A DNA stretch of 64,000 bases from Microbacterium sp. (GTDB taxonomy: Bacteria > Actinomycetota > Actinomycetes > Actinomycetales > Microbacteriaceae): contig JAITLK010000002.1 of assembly GCA_031277945.1 (NCBI GenBank), positions 558,001 to 622,000 of the forward strand, in the 5' to 3' direction. Under the pieces are notes generated by a model. It worked only from the letters and a program-made list of their open reading frames with translations, had not been told where the DNA came from and made no database searches. Positions 17,245-44,113 of this stretch are shown here, in pieces (position 1 is the stretch's first letter; each line of letters begins with the position of its first letter). The translations under genes and the position numbers were made by a program.

Positions 17245-19332
17245 TCAGGCGTCGATGGACTCGCGCGACAGCCGGTCGGACGAGTCGATGATGAACTCGC
17301 GCCGGGGGGCGACGTCATTGCCCATCAGCAGCTCGAACACCTGATTCGCGGCGTCGGCATCGGCGAGCGTGACGCGCCGCAGCAGCCGGCCGCGCTTGTC
17401 CATGGTGGTGGTGGCCAGCTGATCCGCGTCCATCTCACCGAGGCCCTTGTATCGCTGCACCGGCTCCTGCCAGCGCTTGCCGGCCTTGGTCAGCTTGGCG
17501 AGGAGTCCGTGCAGTTCCGCCTCCGAGTACGTGTAGATCGTCTCGTTGGGCTTGGATCCCGGATTCATCACGATGACCCGATGCAGCGGCGGAACGGCCG
17601 CGTACACCCGCCCCGCCTCGACCAGGGGGCGCATGTAGCGGAAGAACAGGGTGAGAAGCAGAGTGCGGATGTGCGCGCCGTCGACGTCGGCATCACTCAT
17701 CAGGATGATCTTCCCGTAGCGCGCCTGCGTGATGTCGAACGTCCGGCCCGACCCCGCCCCGATGGACTGGATGATGGCGGCGCACTCCGCGTTGCCGAGC
17801 ATGTCGGAAACAGACGCCTTCTGCACGTTCAGGATCTTGCCGCGGATGGGAAGCAGCGCCTGATGCTCGGAGTCGCGGGCGAGCTTGGCCGTGCCGAGCG
17901 CCGAGTCGCCCTCGACGATGAACATCTCGGACTGGGAGACGTCGCTGGAGCGGCAGTCGACCAGCTTGACGGGCAACGACGAGGATTCCAGGGCGTTCTT
18001 GCGCCGCTGGGTCTCCTTGTGGGCGCGCGCTGAGATGCGCGCTTTCATCTCGGAGACCACCTTGTCCAGCAGCTGGGACGCCTGGTTCTTGTCGTCCCGC
18101 TTGGTGGAGGAGAACCGCTCCCCGAGCTCCTTCGCCACGACGCGGGCGACGATCTGTCGCACCGCGGGAGTGCCGAGGACCTCCTTGGTCTGGCCCTCGA
18201 ACTGCGGCTCCGGAACCGTGACGGTGAGCACCGCCGTGAGCCCGGCCAGCACGTCGTCCTTCTCCGGCTTGTCACTGCCGGACTTCAGACGACGGGCGTT
18301 GGCCGCCACCTGGGCACGAATGACCTTGAGGAGCTCCTGCTCGAAGCCCTGCTGGTGCGTTCCTCCCTTGGGCGTGGCGATGATGTTCACGAACGAGCGC
18401 GTCGTGGTGTCATAGCCGGTGCCCCACCGCAGCGCGATGTCGACCGCGCACTCGCGCTCGACATCTGTTGCTTGCATGGAGCCATCCGGCTGGAGCACCG
18501 GTACCGTCTCGTGGAAGGTACCCGATCCCTGTAGCCGCCACGTGTCGGTGATCGGCGCATCGGAGGCGAGGAACTCGACGAACTCGGAGATGCCGCCCTC
18601 GTAGCGGTGCAGCGACTCGTTGCCGCCCTCGGCTCGCTTGTCGGTGATGCGGATGCCGAGACCCGGGACCAGGAAGGCGGTCTGTCGCGCGCGCGTCTCC
18701 AGCTCGGCGAGCTGGAAGGCGGCGTCCTTCGTGAAGATCTGGCGGTCCGCCCAGTAGCGCACACGCGTGCCGCTGACGCCCTTGCGTACCTTGCCCACCA
18801 CGCGCAGCTCGCTGCCATCCGCGAACGGGGTGAAGGGGGCGTCGGGGCGCGGCTCCCCCACGTCGGCGAAGGTACCCGGCTCGCCGCGGCGGAAGGACAT
18901 CGCGTAGGTCTTGCCATCGCGGTCCACCTCGACATCGAGTCTTTCGGACAGGGCGTTCACGACCGACGCGCCCACACCGTGCAGACCACCGGATGCCGCA
19001 TACGAGCCACCGCCGAACTTGCCGCCCGCATGCAGCTTCGTGAAGACGACCTCGACGCCGGTGAGACCGGTGCGAGGCTCCACGTCGACAGGGATGCCGC
19101 GACCACGGTCCTGCACCTCGACGCTTCCGTCATCGCGCAGGATCACATCGATGTCGACGCCGTTACCCGCGACGGCTTCATCCACGGCGTTGTCGATGAT
19201 CTCCCACAGACAGTGCATGAGCCCGGGCGACCCGTTGGATCCGATGTACATGCCGGGGCGCTTGCGGACGGCTTCGAGGCCTTCCAGCACCTGGAGATGA
19301 TGAGCGGAGTACTCGGCAGTCACGATCACCAT
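17245..19332 (-). CDS. parE: DNA topoisomerase IV subunit B
   Basis: ATPase subunit of topoisomerase IV, 695 aa. The GHKL ATPase domain shows LEGLEAVRKRPGMYIGS, EIIDNAVDEAVAG (N-box), DRGRGIPVD and GGLHGVGASVVNAL. The TOPRIM domain shows FIVEGDSALG with the catalytic Glu, and LMSDADVDGAHIRTLLLTLFFRYM with the DxD metal site. The C-terminus has RYKGLGEMDADQL. The start at 19332 (ATGGTGATCGTG) has GGAGGT ten bases upstream. The open frame runs 42 codons further without similarity. The gene is convergent with parC rather than in an operon with it, and divergent from the small DUF7455 gene. Confidence 0.92.
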   Translation of the reverse strand: MVIVTAEYSAHHLQVLEGLEAVRKRPGMYIGSNGSPGLMHCLWEIIDNAVDEAVAGNGVDIDVILRDDGSVEVQDRGRGIPVDVEPRTGLTGVEVVFTKLHAGGKFGGGSYAASGGLHGVGASVVNALSERLDVEVDRDGKTYAMSFRRGEPGTFADVGEPRPDAPFTPFADGSELRVVGKVRKGVSGTRVRYWADRQIFTKDAAFQLAELETRARQTAFLVPGLGIRITDKRAEGGNESLHRYEGGISEFVEFLASDAPITDTWRLQGSGTFHETVPVLQPDGSMQATDVERECAVDIALRWGTGYDTTTRSFVNIIATPKGGTHQQGFEQELLKVIRAQVAANARRLKSGSDKPEKDDVLAGLTAVLTVTVPEPQFEGQTKEVLGTPAVRQIVARVVAKELGERFSSTKRDDKNQASQLLDKVVSEMKARISARAHKETQRRKNALESSSLPVKLVDCRSSDVSQSEMFIVEGDSALGTAKLARDSEHQALLPIRGKILNVQKASVSDMLGNAECAAIIQSIGAGSGRTFDITQARYGKIILMSDADVDGAHIRTLLLTLFFRYMRPLVEAGRVYAAVPPLHRVIVMNPGSKPNETIYTYSEAELHGLLAKLTKAGKRWQEPVQRYKGLGEMDADQLATTTMDKRGRLLRRVTLADADAANQVFELLMGNDVAPRREFIIDSSDRLSRESIDA

Positions 19333-19513: not shown

Positions 19514-19729
19514 ATGAACACCACGCTCACCCCCGCCGAGCCGACGGTCTACCGGCTCACCGCGATGGACCGCTGCGATTCGTGCGGAGCCCAGGCCTAC
19601 ATCGCCGCCGAGGTCAACGGCTCGGAGCTCCTCTTCTGCGCCCACCACGGCCGCAAGTACGAAGCCAAGCTCCGTGAGGTCGCCACGTCCTGGCACGATG
19701 AGACCGCCCGTCTCGCCGAGGCCAACTGA
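19514..19729 (+). CDS. Small DUF7455-type zinc-ribbon protein
   Basis: A 71-aa protein with one Cys pair, CDSCG (residues 22-26), and a later FCAHH segment that could complete a Cys/His zinc site. The conserved pattern TAMDRCDSCGAQAYI and LLFCAHHGRKYE is common in small actinobacterial proteins found near sigma factor or topoisomerase genes. Function unknown. The ATG at 19514 has a strong AAGGAGG eight to nine bases upstream, which decides against the longer frame. It is divergent from parE and followed at once by a strong bidirectional hairpin. Confidence 0.85.
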   Translation: MNTTLTPAEPTVYRLTAMDRCDSCGAQAYIAAEVNGSELLFCAHHGRKYEAKLREVATSWHDETARLAEAN

Positions 19730-19801: not shown

Positions 19802-20839
19802 TCACTCCCGGTAGCTGCGCGGCAGGTCGGCGGCGAGGCGGAGCACGATCTCCTCGCCGATCGTGCCGAGTCGCTCCGCGAGGTCGGTCGCTGAATCCGC
19901 CGGTGCGGCGCCGAACAGCGTCACCACCTGCCCGGCCTCCGCGTCGGTCCAGTGCGGGATGCGCAGCGTGTCGGCCGCGATCTCCGTCACGGGCAGTCGT
20001 CCCCCGGGCGTGGCCGCGGTCAGAGATCCGGCGGCCGTCGACATGAGCCCGGTGACGTAGCCGGCATCGATGATGGTGTCCTTGCGGCCGACCTTTGCCA
20101 CCTCGGCCCGCAAGGAGCCCACGATCTGCAGCCCCAGATCGGCCTCCGAGGGACCATCAGCCGATCGGATGCCGTAGTGGAAGGCGCCGATGCGCACCAT
20201 GTCGTAGCGGAACTCGGGGCGAGCGAACGCGGCGGCGCTGGCGGCCAGATGCAGCTTCTCGGGTGCCAGCCCAGCGGCGCACGCCTGCGCCACCGCTGTG
20301 TCGAACACCGCACGGGCGTCATCGTCGTCCGCGTCGGATGCCTCACCGATATGCGACCAGATGCCGACGACCCGGACGAGACCGAGTGCTTCCAGCTGCA
20401 CCGCACGATCCACGAACTCGGGCCACTCCTCGGGGCGGACTCCGTTGCGGTGCAGCCCGGTGTCGATCTTCAGATGAACATCGGCGGTCGCCGACCGCGT
20501 CTGCGCGACGGCCGCCACGTCTTCGAGCAGCGCTGCGGAGCCGACGCCGATGTCCAGGCGCGCCCCGAGCGCGTCGGCCACGTCCTCGCGCCCGGCCAGC
20601 ATCCACGCGAACACCCGCGCCTCGGGAGCCAGCGCGCGAACGGCGACACCGGTGCAGACGTCCAGGGCGCCGATCCAGGTGACGCCTTCGGCGATGGCGC
20701 GGGTCACGATGTGGTCGAGACCGTGCCGGTAGGCATCGTCCTTCACCACGATCATCGGTTCCGCCGGGGCGACGCGCTCTCGCACGACGCGGATGTTGGC
20801 GGACAGCGCCGCCAGATCAACGACGAACTCCGCGCTCAT
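19802..20839 (-). CDS. Alanine-racemase-family protein keeping the PLP lysine but lacking the catalytic tyrosine segment
   Basis: A fold-type III PLP protein of 345 aa. The N-terminal barrel is complete. VVKDDAYRHG (31-40) carries the PLP-binding Lys33, HLKIDTGLHRNGV matches the carbamylated-lysine/arginine strand, GIWSHIGEA keeps the barrel His, and VRIGAFHYGI keeps the phosphate-side Arg. The C-terminal domain is altered: in place of the V-SYG-xx-T segment with the second catalytic base (Tyr265 in Geobacillus Alr), it goes from LRAEVAKVGRKDT straight to IIDAGYVTGL. The ATG at 20839 overlaps the stop of the companion gene. In alanine racemases the active site joins Lys of one chain with Tyr of the other, so this subunit may need its neighbour. 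Substrate unknown. Confidence 0.75.
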   Translation of the reverse strand: MSAEFVVDLAALSANIRVVRERVAPAEPMIVVKDDAYRHGLDHIVTRAIAEGVTWIGALDVCTGVAVRALAPEARVFAWMLAGREDVADALGARLDIGVGSAALLEDVAAVAQTRSATADVHLKIDTGLHRNGVRPEEWPEFVDRAVQLEALGLVRVVGIWSHIGEASDADDDDARAVFDTAVAQACAAGLAPEKLHLAASAAAFARPEFRYDMVRIGAFHYGIRSADGPSEADLGLQIVGSLRAEVAKVGRKDTIIDAGYVTGLMSTAAGSLTAATPGGRLPVTEIAADTLRIPHWTDAEAGQVVTLFGAAPADSATDLAERLGTIGEEIVLRLAADLPRSYRE

Positions 20840-21510
20840 GCGACGACCTCCCGACGCGTCCGGTTGCCGATGGCGGGCAGCAATTCTTCCAGGCCGAGGC
20901 CGGTGAGGGAGATCCACTCGGCCCAGGCCGGCTCTCCGCGCTCCGGGTCTCCGAGGAACACGACGTCATCACCGGTCGCCGCCTCCGTCGCCGCGATGTC
21001 CACGACGCAGACGTCCATCGCCACACGACCGACGATGGGACGACGAGTGCCGTTCACCGTGACGGCCAGACGGTTGCCAAGCGAGCGCACGATGCCTTGC
21101 GCGTAGCCCCCTGTCACCAGCGCGACGCGGGTGTCCTCTGCCGCGGTGAACGTGTAGCCGTACGACACGCTCTCCCCCGCTCGCAGCACCTTGACGCCCA
21201 GGATCTCGCCGCTCAGCGTGACCGCCGGCAGCGTCTGCGGGAGGGCTCCGGCGGCCACCGCCGCCGTCACGACGGCGAAGGTGGGCGGGACCTCGCCCTC
21301 GAATGCCTCGGGGCCATCCGCCCCGACGACACCGGCCAGTGACTGCTCGCGGGCGACCGTCCGGATGAGGTCGGCGCCGAGTCCCCAGCCGTCGTGCCGG
21401 GCATCGGCGTACACCTCACGGGGATGACCGGACAGGTTCCGGCTCACGGCCGAGCGCGATACCCGCAGGGTGGGGTGGGTGCGACCGATGAGGTCGTGCG
21501 CGGAGATCAT
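20836..21510 (-). CDS. Alanine racemase C-terminal-domain protein with a shortened barrel lacking the PLP lysine
   Basis: A 224-aa protein. About 95 N-terminal residues are a remnant of the racemase barrel: VYADARHDGWG (33-43) aligns with the usual V-K-A-D-A-Y-G-H-G, but the lysine position is Tyr34. The rest is a well-kept alanine racemase C-terminal domain, with VSYGYTFTA (115-123) carrying the second catalytic base Tyr117, GGYAQGIVRSLGN and IVGRVAMDVCVVD. It is therefore the mirror image of the gene it overlaps (ATGA), which has Lys but no Tyr. A heterodimer with one composite active site is the simplest reading. Decay into a pseudogene is less likely because the frame and core motifs are intact. 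It is preceded by a possible 15-codon leader. Confidence 0.78.
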   Translation of the reverse strand: MISAHDLIGRTHPTLRVSRSAVSRNLSGHPREVYADARHDGWGLGADLIRTVAREQSLAGVVGADGPEAFEGEVPPTFAVVTAAVAAGALPQTLPAVTLSGEILGVKVLRAGESVSYGYTFTAAEDTRVALVTGGYAQGIVRSLGNRLAVTVNGTRRPIVGRVAMDVCVVDIAATEAATGDDVVFLGDPERGEPAWAEWISLTGLGLEELLPAIGNRTRREVVA

Positions 21511-21554
21511 CGCATACGGCCTTCCGTGCGTTCGAAGGGGGCGTTGTCGTGCAT
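21507..21554 (-). CDS. Possible 15-codon leader ORF coupled to the racemase pair
   Basis: The mini-ORF MHDNAPFERTEGRMR starts at an ATG with GAAAGG five bases upstream and ends in a TGA that overlaps the ATG of the next gene (ATGA). It could be a short leader that couples translation to the racemase genes. No similarity is recognised and codon statistics mean nothing at this length, so it may be chance. Confidence 0.3.
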   Translation of the reverse strand: MHDNAPFERTEGRMR

Positions 21555-21736
21555 AGGAGCCTTTCGGATGCGCTTCGGGGCCCGGCCCCGAGTGGCGGAG
21601 CGCTGGTCCGTCCGCCGTGCGGACACCGCCGTCGATCCTAGTCGCCGCCGCTCCGCAGCCCCTGTGGATCCTGCTCAGATGCTCAGGACCCGACGATGCC
21701 CGCCGGTAAACTGAAGACGAGAATCAAAGGAGCACC

Positions 21737-22768
21737 ATGGCCTCGTCTGCCTCATCCCTCCCGGTGCGCGTCAAGTACGCGGTTGATCGCGCGCTGCGCA
21801 TCAACACCGGATCGCTGATCGCGCGCGCCAAGGAGACCGCCGCGCACCACCACCGTGCGGTCCCCGCCGTGGTGCTGGACATGCTGTGGTCTGCAGCCCG
21901 CCACGACGTGGGCTTCCAGGACTACGTGGACTACGACTTCGCGATCCTCAGCAGGGCTGAGCGCGCCACCTACATGACGCACCCCATCTCGAACCGCATG
22001 TCGCAGATGCTCGACAAGCCCGAGGGCCGTGCCACGTTCCACGACAAGATCGCCTTCAACCGGGCGTTCGCTCCGTATCTCGGCCGCGAGTGGCTCGTCC
22101 TGGGCGAGAACCCGGCCTCGGACGCCGATGCGCTGCAGGCGTTCGCCGAGCGTCACCCCACCTTCATCGCGAAGACACCGCAGGGATCGGCCGGTCTCGG
22201 AGTGCACCGCTACCAGGCGGCGGAGGTGTCCGATTGGAAGGCGTTCACCGCAGAGCTGGTGGCCCGCGGTGAGCTGCTGATCGAGGAGGTCATCCTCCAG
22301 CACGACGACATCGCCGCCTACTGCCCCGGAACGGTGAACACTACCCGCGTCACGGCGTACTTCGACGGCACGAAGACTCACATCCTCGCAGCCGCCCAGA
22401 AGTTCGGGCGTGGCGCCGTGAGCGACCAGATGTCGTTCGGCGGCTTCTACACGATGCTCGACGACAACGGTCACGCTCGCAGCGCCGGTTACGACTCGCA
22501 CGAGAACGTCCACGAGCTGCACCCCGACACCCACAAGCGCATCGCCGATTTCCAGCTGCCCATGTGGGATGAGGTCGTGGCGTACGTGGACCGTATCGCG
22601 CGCGTCATTCCGACGATCCCGTACGTCGGCTGGGACATCGTCGTCACCCCCAATGGCCCCGTCGTGATCGAGGGCAACTGGGCGGCCGGAGTCTATGAGA
22701 ACAAGCCGAGCGTGAGCGGCATCCGCACGGGTCACCGCGAACGCTACCGCGCAGCCACGGGCATCTGA
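21737..22768 (+). CDS. ATP-grasp ligase of the sugar-transfer-associated type (PF14397-like)
   Basis: A 343-aa ATP-dependent carboxylate ligase-like enzyme. Typical blocks are IAKTPQGSAGLGV (ATP-grasp glycine loop, about 145-157), NTTRVTAYFDG, a GGFYTMLDDNGHARSAG strand and LHPDTHKRIADFQLPMWDEV. The metal- and phosphate-binding end is VGWDIVVTPNGPVVIEGNW, with Asp, Glu and Asn in place. There is no membrane segment. A strong AAAGGAG precedes the ATG, and TAAACT at 21707-21712 could be a -10. It is divergent from the racemase pair. ATP-grasp enzymes next to racemases are known in peptidoglycan cross-bridge synthesis (D-aspartate ligase with aspartate racemase in Enterococcus faecium). A similar job here is inferred, and the acceptor is unknown. 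Confidence 0.8.
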   Translation: MASSASSLPVRVKYAVDRALRINTGSLIARAKETAAHHHRAVPAVVLDMLWSAARHDVGFQDYVDYDFAILSRAERATYMTHPISNRMSQMLDKPEGRATFHDKIAFNRAFAPYLGREWLVLGENPASDADALQAFAERHPTFIAKTPQGSAGLGVHRYQAAEVSDWKAFTAELVARGELLIEEVILQHDDIAAYCPGTVNTTRVTAYFDGTKTHILAAAQKFGRGAVSDQMSFGGFYTMLDDNGHARSAGYDSHENVHELHPDTHKRIADFQLPMWDEVVAYVDRIARVIPTIPYVGWDIVVTPNGPVVIEGNWAAGVYENKPSVSGIRTGHRERYRAATGI

Positions 22769-23542: not shown

Positions 23543-24868
<1,326 letters not shown>

Positions 24869-39850: not shown

Positions 39851-42800
39851 TCAGATCCGTGTACGTCGCCTTGCCAGCAGGACCATCATCCCGAGCAAGA
39901 GCACCCCGATGCCGAAGCCACCGAGCGCGACTGACGCGCTCAAGTCATGGCCAGTCTGCGGAAGCGCCGAAGCTGTCGGCTCCGGCGTCACGGTCGGTTC
40001 CGGCGTCACGGTCGGTTCCGGCGTCACGGTCGGTTCCGGCGTCACGGTCGGTTCCGGCGTCACGGTCGGCTCCGGCGTCACGGTCGGCTCCGGCGTCACG
40101 GTCGGTTCCGGCGTCACGGTCGGCTCCGGCGTCACGGTCGGCTCCGGCGTCACGGTCGGCTCCGGCGTCACGGTCGGCTCCGGCGTCACGGTCGGCTCCG
40201 GGGTCACCGTCGGCTCCGGCGTCACGGTCGGCTCCGGCGTCACCGTCGGCTCCGGCGTCACGGTCGGCTCCGGTCCGGCACACACGCGTGTCGTGGTGCT
40301 GCTGTCGACGCCAGTGTCCACGCGCGCCGTGTTGTTCACCACCACGCACGAACCGAGCCCCACGGGGACATCAAGCGTGTAGCTCTCCGTGAACTCAGCA
40401 CCCTCAGCCCAGGTGTACGGACCGAATGCCCGATCGCTGATCGCGACCGTGTCCGCCGTGGCGGCGTCGGTCACCGTCGCGGTACGACCCACCTCGGTGA
40501 CGCTGTACGCGACATCACCCGAACCCGACTCCGACACCGATCCGGATGTCACCGTCGCCGTCACCGTGCGGTCGAGGTCAGAGCCGGGAGATCCCTCACA
40601 GGAGTAGTCGAGCGCCAGCTCCTCCCCCGCAGCGATGACTCGGTCAGCACCCTCCGCCACCGTGCAGGTGAGACCGACGCCGTCGGTCGCTGCCGTCACG
40701 GTCACGGTGCGTGTCACCGCGTCGGCCGGGTTCAGTACGCGAATGGTTCCACCCAGGTGGGCGTCGGCATCGGTCACTGTGGTGGCCGTCGTCTCGACCT
40801 CGTACTCGATTCGCGCAACACCGGAGGCGGGATCCGGACGAATCGGAGCCGGTGTGGTGACGTGCTTGGCGATGTCCCAGGCGAATGTCCGCGTGAGCGA
40901 GGCCTGCGCGTCGACGACGAGCTGCATTCGCACCGGAATCACCCCGGCATCGAGGGCTCCAATGTCCTGGCTCCGGGCGAGGGCCACCGTTGCCACGGCA
41001 CCGGTGGCGGGGTCGGCGTCCGAGTCGATGGCGGAGTCGTCGCCCACCAGCGGATCCGTGATGCGGTACCCCCGCGTCGCGAGATCATCCCGGTCGAAGA
41101 CCACCTGATAGTCAGCGCTGTGCAATTGATCGAAGAGGTAGCGACCGTCCGGTCCGGTGACTGCGGTGCGGAACGCTGCGGTGTCGCCGTCGCGGTAGAG
41201 CTTCACCTGCACTCCCGCGAGGATCGCTTCGTCCGCCTGCCTGACGCCGTCTGCGTTCGCATCGATCCACGCGAGACCGGCGATGGAACTGGCGACCACC
41301 CGAACCGGGTCGGCTGTGCGCACACCCAGCGGAATCGTCTGATCGCGCTGAGGGTCATAGACCAGCCCGGATGCGTCGTTGTGGTACTCGTCCCCCTTCA
41401 GTTGTCCCGACACAGCGAACCGGAGGTCGATGGCGCCGTATCCCTGAGTGCTCGCCTCGATGTTCGGAACGATCACCCGCACCGCTGTCGCGCCCGCGGG
41501 CCAGGATGTGGGGTCCGCCGGGTTCACCGTCGTCCAGGTCACACCGCTGGCCGGCGCCGCCCCCACTGTGGCGGGCGGGGCGGTGGTCAGCTGAACCCGC
41601 GTTCCCGGTTGCAGCGCCGAGCCGATGCGATCAAGCGCCACGAGTTGCGCCGAGCCGTGGAATGCGGAGCCGCGACCATCGGAGTCGTAGGGGAAGACAT
41701 CGACGAACGTGCCCTGCCCCAGGTCGTAGTTGTTGTAGTTGACCCACTGCACCCGCCACGCGGCCGGTTCGTCCTCGACCTCGATCTCGGGGTCCGAGAT
41801 CAGCTGCTTCGAGAAGAACGCGGCTTCCGGGGTCGTGGCGACCACGGTTGCGGTGTCCGAGTGCCTCTTCGGGAACACTCCGGCGGCCACCTCCGGGTCA
41901 GACCCGGTGGCCGTCACCGAGGCGGTGTTCGTCACCGTCGCACGATACGGGTCTCCCGGCGGTGGCAGGAGGACCCCCATCGTCGCCGTGTAGGTGATCG
42001 GTGGCAGAACAGCGTCGCTCGTGATCGCCGATGCGGGCGTGAAGTCCAGCGTGATGCCGTGCACGTCGTCGGTCGTGTACGGAACGGCGTCCGGGCCGTA
42101 GTCGGCGGGTGTCTGCGTCACGATCCAGAACGGATCCAGAGAGGCGAGGTCCACACCCACGACGCCGATGTCGAGTCGGTCCACGACATGGAGGTCGGGG
42201 ACGCCTCCCGGAAGGAAGGTACCCGCAGGAGTGGTGACCGTGGGCTGGATGACGTAGTCGATCTTCCCCTCGGGCATCACCTGGGACTGCTGCGCATCCT
42301 TGGCGATCCGCAGCACGTTGCCGATCACGGTGGCTGCGACGTCGTAGGTCGTCGTCTTCGCCAGTTCCGTTGCCTGCCAGATGGTGTGGGTGGGCAGGAC
42401 ATCGCCGACCTGTCCGACGACGAGCATCGGGATCTGGGAGAACATCAGCTTGGACTGCGGGAAGTTCGCATTGAAGTTCTCGCCCGTGAACACTCCGGGA
42501 CGGAGGAACCGCGCGCCGCTGATGAGCGCGGGATCGAGCGTGGTGCAGTCCGCCCAGGTCATCGTCGCGGTGGACGCCGCGTTCGTCCCGTCGTAGTCCG
42601 TGGTGCACATGAGCGAGTACGTCGACGGATCGAGGGCACGCGATGCGGGCGCCGAACTCGCCGGGCGCATCGCGCCCAGCACGGCACCGTCCAGGTGAGC
42701 CGTATCGATGCGCTGCACCGACGGATCCCACAGGTGCACGCTGGTCAGGTCAGTGAGGGTCGGCGCTGACGGAGAGAGAGCCGCTTCACTCGTGAAGGAG

Positions 42801-44109
42801 CCGCCGACGCCGATGAACCCGGCCGACGTCCCGGTGCCGCTGGAGAGCAGCGCCCAGTCGTTCTGGGATGCCGACGCCACGATGGGGTGGCCCGTGCTGT
42901 TTTCGGGGTAGGCCGAATCCAGCGAAGCGGTCGATGTCTTGGGGGTGAAGTACGCCGACCCCCAGTTCGAGTCGTACACCACGCTCTGGCACGCCAGGTG
43001 AACCGCCGCCGTGTTGTTGTTCGGATCCGAGTCCGCGATCGGGCGGCCCTGGTTGTCCTGCCAGCCCGCGGTCGGAGCGACGGTCGCGCGCAGATCCGCG
43101 CTGCAGCCGTACGAATCGGTCAGCACCTGCTGCGGAGTGTAGGAGTAGATCACGAGCTTGTTGCCGTTGTCCGCGAGCATCGCATCGCAAGCCGGGCTCT
43201 TCTTCATCGTGATCGTGACCGTCTGCGCGGAGGACGACGGGTAGTACTGGTTGTTGTTCGTGGCCGACGGCGATACGTACACCCAGCACCCAGCCCCCTG
43301 CACGTTCGGCGTGCCGGAACCCGTTCGCGGCATCTGGAACTGAGATCGAGGTCCGTTGTATGCCACCGTGAACGTGATGTTGCCCTGCGGATCGGCATAG
43401 CCGGTCTTGGCGATCGTGTCCGGACGCAGAGCGACATCCCAGCGCTGGGCGAGTGCCGGTCCGGCGCCCCCCGTGCCGCCCCACTCAGTCGCGCCACCGG
43501 CGAACCACCAGGCAGGTTCCTGCGTCGGCTGCCCGACCGCCTGGATGGAGATGTCCGCGCTCGCGACAGAACGGACGGTGATCGGGGCGACGTCGTAGGT
43601 GTGGGTCCCTGCGGAGTCCGTCACCTGAAGGCTGGGCGCCCAGGTGCTGCCGTCCACGCATCCTTCGCCCGCCTTGACTTTGAAGGACACCCGGACGGTG
43701 CCGCTCGGCGCCTGTGACCACGTGACCTGGATGGTGTCGGCGTCGGGGTGGGAGACGGCTCCCGTCGACTGACCTCCGTCCAGATTCCAGGTGAGGGAGC
43801 TGTCCAGTGACGTATCCCATACCCAGCAGGGCGGCTTGGTGAGAGTCATGGTCGACTCCCCCACCGCATCCGTCGTGGTGGCCTGGATACGCAGCTCGAC
43901 GAGGTCGCGCACCGCCACGATGTCGTTGTCGTTCGAGGAGTCGACAGGATTGTTCGTGAACGAGAATCCGTCGGCGACGTTGTCGAACTGCACGGACTGA
44001 AACGCGCCGGTCGGCGCAGCAACGGCCGCCGTGGGCACGAGCAGGGCGATCAGCAGGCTCGCTGCTGCGGCCAGCACCGCGATGACGGTGCTGGCCTTGC
44101 GGCGCTCAC

Positions 44110-44113
<4 letters not shown>
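39851..44113 (-). CDS. Large LPxTG cell-wall-anchored surface protein with SdrD B-like domain and (TPEPTV)n stalk
   Basis: A 1420-aa secreted protein. An Arg/Lys-led signal peptide of about 32 residues ends at AVAA. Long beta-rich regions similar to DUF11/isopeptide-type surface domains follow, then an SdrD B-type domain ([34 protein letters not shown] and so on, about 938-1050) with its Asp-rich calcium-type loop. Next are another beta region, a stalk of about 17 hexapeptides TPEPTV (about 1280-1380) and the sorting signal LPQTG (about 1384) with a hydrophobic helix and RRRTR. It is anchored by a sortase, which is not in the window. It starts at GTG overlapping the stop of the smaller LPxTG gene. 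An adhesin or surface-layer role is inferred. Confidence 0.88.
39976..40272 (-). repeat. Tandem 18-bp repeats coding for TPEPTV
   Basis: About 16.5 tandem copies of an 18-bp unit (ggctccggcgtcacggtc on the plus strand) differ mainly by single silent changes (ggctcc/ggttcc, gtcacg/gtcacc). Each unit encodes one TPEPTV hexapeptide, so gain or loss of copies keeps the frame and changes only stalk length. Confidence 0.95.

Follow-up and report, generated by a model that had tools for sequence, protein, structure and literature searches.

The 64,000-nucleotide stretch of Microbacterium sp. DNA analysed here (the window; contig JAITLK010000002.1, positions 558,001 to 622,000) belongs to genome G000, which comprises 1.68 Mb and is 44.5% complete, and carries two racemase-family genes, A and B, next to two putative ligase genes. 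Gene B (19802..20839, minus strand) encodes an alanine-racemase-family subunit of 345 amino acids with an intact barrel for pyridoxal phosphate (PLP) and a degenerate C-domain. Gene A (20836..21510, minus strand) encodes a subunit of the same family with 224 amino acids, an intact C-domain and a barrel reduced to a stub, and the reading frames of A and B overlap by ATGA. Divergent from this pair stands the gene of an ATP-grasp ligase of the PF14397 (ATPgrasp_ST) family (21737..22768, plus strand), identified by a Pfam match with 115.6 bits at a cut-off of 31.4. An earlier note on this DNA had described these three genes as an ATGA-coupled operon divergent to an ATP-grasp gene, and their positions and arrangement are confirmed. 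The shared control region of 182 bp that it proposed needs correction: 226 bp separate the ATG of A from the ATG of the ATP-grasp gene, and the shorter distance holds if counted from the ATG at 21554 of a 15-codon open frame (21507..21554, minus strand); this frame, the TGA of which overlaps the start codon of A, is possibly a leader, a coupling element or chance. A fourth gene, encoding a CofE-like amide ligase recognized by its Pfam match to PF01996 (22833..23543, minus strand), lies between the ATP-grasp gene and a primary sigma factor gene of the sigA/rpoD type (23543..24868, minus strand), and its start is within one base of the sigA stop. On the other side a gene for a small DUF7455 protein (19514..19729, plus strand), a frequent neighbour, lies between B and a gene of the DNA gyrase/topoisomerase B subunit type, parE/gyrB (17245..19332, minus strand). 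The sigA and parE genes, both named from sequence alone, form the left and the right flank in relatives. The arrangement of A, B and the ATP-grasp gene is conserved and not due to chance: A and B are adjacent in 34 of 34 related loci, and an ATP-grasp homologue is found in the stretch around them in 31 of the 34, two of these being interrupted where a contig ends. Among the named relatives found, Microbacterium nymphoidis (L006) is the closest, with identities of 87.5% for A, 91% for B and 98.5% for the ATP-grasp protein.

The closest solved relatives of A and B are alanine racemases, the structure of A having been predicted and then compared with solved structures (VIA-align). A and B have in common with alanine racemase (Alr), a PLP enzyme of fold-type III, the fold with barrel and C-domain, the PLP lysine and a catalytic tyrosine that comes from the partner subunit. 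The earlier note had read the genes as two racemases; however, neither window protein combines both active-site residue sets in one polypeptide. In alanine racemase numbering, window B has the PLP lysine (K33, corresponding to Lys39), lacks the catalytic tyrosine and carries Glu329 at the position of Tyr354, while window A has the catalytic tyrosine (Y117, corresponding to Tyr265) together with Y136, M165, R142 and R162, and lacks the PLP lysine. Proteins were classed as B by Lys39 and as A by Tyr265. Among 229 racemase-type proteins, 105 have the PLP lysine without the catalytic tyrosine, 101 show the reverse, 22 have both and one has neither. Further residues follow the same division, Lys129 being kept in 104 of the 105 B proteins and Met312 in all 101 A proteins (up to two of which may be truncated full-length copies). 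Judged by these residues, A and B complement each other, each holding half of a single active site of the alanine-racemase type, and very probably they constitute a heterodimeric racemase. The Alr homodimer has two sites; A and B, in contrast, would pair as unlike subunits with one predicted site per dimer. The PLP racemase would then be an obligate heterodimer with only one functional site, to which B would contribute its barrel with the PLP lysine and the acidic residue of the substrate pocket, and A its C-domain residues along with the catalytic tyrosine. No paper on a heterodimeric or split alanine racemase or on a diaminobutyrate racemase was found in the open literature. The window genome also has another, full-length gene of the Alr family (L002, G000:C3:40090-40743), with His at position 354 and His at position 129.

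The residue at position 354 bears on the substrate. Tyr354 of Alr is replaced in B by Glu (90 of the 105 proteins) or Asp (14, with one protein cut off), and in the 22 full-length copies the residue is Tyr (14), Asp (4), Glu (3) or His (1). According to the available part of PMC3485190, the strict alanine specificity of Alr is tied to Tyr354, and the lysine-preferring racemase Lyr from Proteus mirabilis and the broad-specificity racemase Bar have Thr or Ala there. Lyr and Bar are thus like B in having a residue other than Tyr, but unlike the A and B pair they carry both residue sets in one chain. The acidic residue of B suggests a cationic or basic substrate such as ornithine. A second hint comes from three loci in which a VioC/GntD-like gene stands directly before the ATP-grasp, A and B genes and in the same direction (L015 3923-4903, L017 3923-4903, L036 3978-4961). 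Enzymes of the VioC/GntD kind are beta-hydroxylases of basic amino acids, of the Fe(II)/2-oxoglutarate type. The matches for L015 and L036 (175-218 bits) are under the equivalog cut-offs, and L017 was assigned by 69% identity; the HxE...H pattern is present in these proteins, which may be hydroxylases of the bridge diamino acid. The locus L036 is that of M. sufflavum SSW1-51, and D-ornithine is given for the strains of a study that includes it (PMC10757982, available in part). The diamino-acid racemase of the earlier note is supported by both the acidic pocket residue and the hydroxylase. A mutant of Lyr speaks against it: T391Y kept 53% of the lysine activity, had no alanine activity and left the preference for Lys/Arg unchanged (PMC3485190, same part), so position 354 alone does not fix the substrate. 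Because of this result our confidence is reduced, and we only lean towards a diamino acid as the substrate of A and B, which would be ornithine in most Microbacterium and perhaps diaminobutyrate or lysine elsewhere.

The strongest alternative is that A and B form a heterodimeric but otherwise ordinary isozyme of D-alanine racemase, tied to its neighbours by position alone. Besides the mutant data (PMC3485190, in the same part), which indicate that specificity in Lyr is not set by the Tyr354-equivalent site alone, the solved relatives named above and the Alr homology in Pfam and NCBIfam agree with it. However, Glu or Asp occupies position 354 in 104 of 105 B proteins, whereas Tyr (14) or His (1) is found in the full-length copies apart from seven second tandem copies with Asp or Glu. 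In addition, G000 contains the full-length Alr-family gene L002, whose residues are atypical too, and in L015, L017 and L036 the ATP-grasp, A and B genes are found together away from their usual site, in company of the VioC/GntD-like basic-amino-acid hydroxylase. We regard an alanine isozyme as unlikely.

With respect to its ligases the locus exists in two states. In the 74 loci mapped (34 related and 40 further), the interval between sigA and parE holds, where genes lie there, either the CofE-like and ATP-grasp genes or MurT and GatD; the genes are located elsewhere in ten loci (L015, L017, L033, L036, L100, L102, L106, L117, L130, L134). Among 149 Microbacterium genomes, 120 have the CofE-like gene (E 1e-20) and 28 have MurT (E 1e-30), with no overlap and only one genome with neither (G327, 72% complete). 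The ATP-grasp gene is matched at E 1e-67 or better in 120 of the 149, and 119 of these have the CofE-like gene; the exceptions to the pairing are G239 (CofE-like only, partial) and G327 (ATP-grasp only, partial). Weak ATP-grasp matches (3e-28 to 3e-4) occur in seven more genomes, six of them MurT genomes. Gene B is strongly matched and free of internal stops in 123 genomes, matched more weakly in G285 and missing from 25, all of which carry the CofE-like and ATP-grasp genes, often with two ATP-grasp copies; conversely, B is present in all 28 MurT genomes (27 strong matches and G285). It is the CofE-like gene, which the earlier note left out of its trio, that regularly accompanies the ATP-grasp gene, and not the racemase. 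A fixed module of racemase and ATP-grasp ligase, as the earlier note had it, is not supported, since 28 of the 149 genomes combine B and MurT without a strong ATP-grasp match and 25 have the ATP-grasp gene without B. Because of these 28 genomes the ATP-grasp protein was rejected as a universal bridge ligase. In two B-less genomes (L106, L117) an extra ATP-grasp copy lies among flagellar-looking genes, named from sequence.

The exclusion extends beyond the genus. Among 199 genomes of the family, GatD is matched in 156 (E 1e-3, some matches weak) and the CofE-like gene strongly (below 1e-100) in 28, with no overlap and 15 genomes with neither, and both ligase states are found in different species of nine genera. 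The CofE-like matches in these genomes number 50, of which 28 are strong, three intermediate (G053, G123, G147; 1e-36 to 1e-42) and 19 weak. In a class-level sample of 374 genomes the ATP-grasp subfamily is strongly matched in eight, all of them from the window's family, which contributes at least 18 genomes to the sample; weak partial matches were obtained in eight genomes outside the family (E 7e-16 to 2e-34) and in G271 of the window's own genus (1.5e-15). Repeated exchange at one chromosomal site argues that both sets do the same job, and we think it probable that they serve as bridge ligases. The top solved match of the ATP-grasp (A3) profile is glutathione synthetase (E 0.25), and the CofE-like profile has one solved match, at chance level. 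Alternatively, the ATP-grasp enzyme might act on an exported polysaccharide or a teichoic-type polymer instead of peptidoglycan, as its Pfam name, which is associated with sugar transfer, and the extra copies among flagellar-looking genes in L106 and L117 could suggest. Against this stand its near-complete co-occurrence with the CofE-like gene and its exclusion of MurT in the 149 genomes; the labelled neighbours, moreover, are housekeeping genes, most other neighbours carrying no annotation, so that polysaccharide genes may be among them. A polysaccharide substrate is in our estimation quite improbable.

In B-type peptidoglycan, the chemistry of which has been known for decades, cross-linking starts at the D-Glu alpha-carboxyl, and where this carboxyl carries the bridge, a working amidase would compete with it. 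MurT-GatD, the isoglutaminyl synthase, amidates exactly this alpha-carboxyl in lipid II (PMC3266927, PMC6113224, both as available in part). At the nucleophile position of GatD, 93 Microbacteriaceae loci have Gly (68), Ala (17), Ser (3) or Cys (5), so that the cysteine is lost in 88 of 93, whereas all 22 loci from other families of the order have Cys together with His. The 93 loci stand for about 75 genomes, out of the 156 with a match plus loci of the genus. Aligning the profiles to GatD and MurT of S. aureus supports these assignments for Cys94 and His189; at the latter position the family loci have His (42), Gln (38) or other residues (13). The GatD of a 0.93 Mb genome of the family (L209, G015) has Ser at the position of the nucleophile Cys. 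Amidation from glutamine is lost in the S. aureus variants C94G and C94S, and C94G retains ammonia-dependent activity at pH 8.5 (PMC3266927, PMC6113224, in the same parts), which makes it plausible that MurT takes an amine from outside. The MurT of sister species (A4 profile compared with S. aureus MurT) keeps the residues of the ATP site; the P-loop, Glu108 and Asp349 are all retained. The glutaminase looks dead in most of the family, and in the window's species the pair at this site is replaced by the CofE-like and ATP-grasp proteins. Loss of the MurT zinc ribbon was considered as a sign of repurposing and rejected, as the ribbon is also absent in other families.

Several observations connect the locus with the cell wall. 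A gene for MurJ, the lipid II flippase, lies inside three loci, with the CofE-like gene on one side and the ATP-grasp pair on the other (L022 2272-3861, L023 1929-3512, L140 2599-4191), assigned by Pfam for L022 and by 57-63% identity for L023 and L140. The Dps proteins of the B-less genomes (24 of 25 searched; 19 proteins from 19 genomes compared) were set against PDB 2yjj, which we take to be Dps from M. arborescens; G341 has 94% and G254 has 92% identity, and the next has 78%. By this comparison two of the 25 B-less genomes are placed near the imperiale clade, where two of three species have L-lysine. Microbacterium species have D-ornithine, L-lysine or diaminobutyrate as diamino acid, with one kind in most clusters, and M. 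testaceum (L018), M. excoecariae (L034) and M. sufflavum (L036) group with D-ornithine species (PMC10757982, available part).

Taken together, these data incline us to see here a B-type bridge locus, composed of a heterodimeric diamino-acid racemase and either of two exchangeable ligase sets. The CofE-like and ATP-grasp proteins would be an amide-ligase set that replaces the MurT and glutaminase-dead GatD of other species, and either set would attach glycine and/or the diamino acid, as residues of the bridge, to the D-Glu alpha-carboxyl on a lipid-linked or nucleotide-linked precursor. The cross-bridge role that the earlier note assigned to the three genes is in line with the swap against MurT-GatD and with MurJ inside three loci, although the trio itself turns out to be a fragment of a larger locus. 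In favour of the note's reading, strong ATP-grasp matches in the class-level sample are confined to the window's family; against it, the trio is also present in M. gubbeenense (L024), an L-lysine species according to the available part of PMC10757982. This last point weighs against a bridge locus of the kind proposed, and it is not the only one. Among the 149 Microbacterium genomes, the 28 without a strong ATP-grasp match are also without a CofE-like match, B is missing from 25, and the genomes are related, so that p values for co-occurrence are not true probabilities. Equating the B-less genomes with L-lysine species rests on two of the 19 Dps proteins compared (92-94% to 2yjj), a comparison limited to B-less genomes. 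G147 combines strong GatD with an intermediate CofE-like match, MurT retains the equivalent of Asp349, and in some genomes whose GatD is dead (G002, G018) just a single racemase is matched. The GatD sample is uneven, consisting of the top scorers of a profile made from Cys-less sequences plus 20 hand-picked lower-scoring loci, and the five family loci that keep Cys and His (L191, L194, L195, L199, L205) are all among these 20; in each of their genomes one racemase is matched, and the CofE-like gene is not. A fuller history would be that Microbacteriaceae made an amino-acid ligase of MurT-GatD via loss of the glutaminase, later swapped it in many lineages for the unrelated CofE-like and ATP-grasp proteins, and duplicated a neighbouring alanine racemase that split into a one-site diamino-acid heterodimer, together the long-missing enzymes of the B-type bridge. 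We put this forward tentatively, overall confidence being lowered by the Lyr T391Y result and the uneven GatD sampling.

For the split of the racemase, intermediates appear to persist. Adjacent full-length racemases are found in other genera of the family (L052, L053, L056, L058, L061, L063, L066), with a frame overlap of four bases in five of the seven pairs (exceptions are L061 and L066, the starts being chosen by script), and in all seven pairs position 354 is Tyr in the first copy and Asp or Glu in the second. After thinning at 80% identity, midpoint-rooted FastTree trees were calculated for 138 C-domains and 78 barrels. The C-domains from A proteins fall into one clade, which lies beside three first copies (support 0.87). 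Among the barrels, eight B proteins of the Asp type cluster with two second copies (0.95 and 0.90 inside this cluster), but the 47 remaining B barrels form a separate clade (0.92), and the tree does not settle where the Microbacterium B came from. Some A genes keep a long barrel without the lysine (L288, 356 amino acids; L296, 389 amino acids). Tandem copies and long A intermediates fit a duplication followed by complementary loss and then shortening. One could also view A, which has lost most of its barrel, as a decaying pseudogene and B, without its catalytic Tyr, as an inactive or regulatory relic. Yet the ratios of nonsynonymous to synonymous substitution (dN/dS) over seven locus pairs are 0.12-0.38 for A and 0.08-0.24 for B (0.02-0.11 for the ATP-grasp gene), indicating purifying selection on both racemase genes, and with a strong, stop-free B in 123 of 149 genomes and further active-site residues that co-segregate, decay is highly improbable.

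The known systems resemble the locus in part. In Enterococcus faecium, an ATP-grasp D-aspartate ligase and an aspartate racemase make the cross-bridge, with a racemase family different from that of A and B; the shared idea is an ATP-grasp ligase beside an amino-acid racemase. A link in sequence did not emerge from the A3 profile search with its glutathione synthetase match, the E. faecium ligase itself being outside the comparison. CofE, the F420-0:L-glutamate ligase, shares PF01996 with the window protein, but that this protein is itself an F420 glutamate ligase linked here by accident is very unlikely, as it scores 24.2 bits against the CofE equivalog cut-off of 180.65 bits in NCBIfam and its gene accompanies the ATP-grasp gene in 119 of 149 genomes and never MurT. 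No paper on enzymes building the B-type bridge was found among the best-ranked papers listed from the open literature (subscription journals were mostly outside the search), nor a relevant one there on MurT-GatD in microbacteria with B-type walls. The locus offers four to six named genes with which B-type bridge synthesis in soil bacteria can be tested. If our interpretation is true, it would provide an example from nature in which complementary losses turned a homodimer into a heterodimer and long intermediate forms survive, and in which unrelated enzyme sets, two in number, have replaced each other repeatedly at a single chromosomal site.

A PADLOC scan of four locus proteins gave no match, and a role in defence is not supported. 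Elsewhere in the window, RNase P is the sole RNA element at gathering score, and a large predicted surface protein is encoded at 39851-44113 (minus strand), with a long repeat of the PEPTVT type and a C-terminal hydrophobic stretch.

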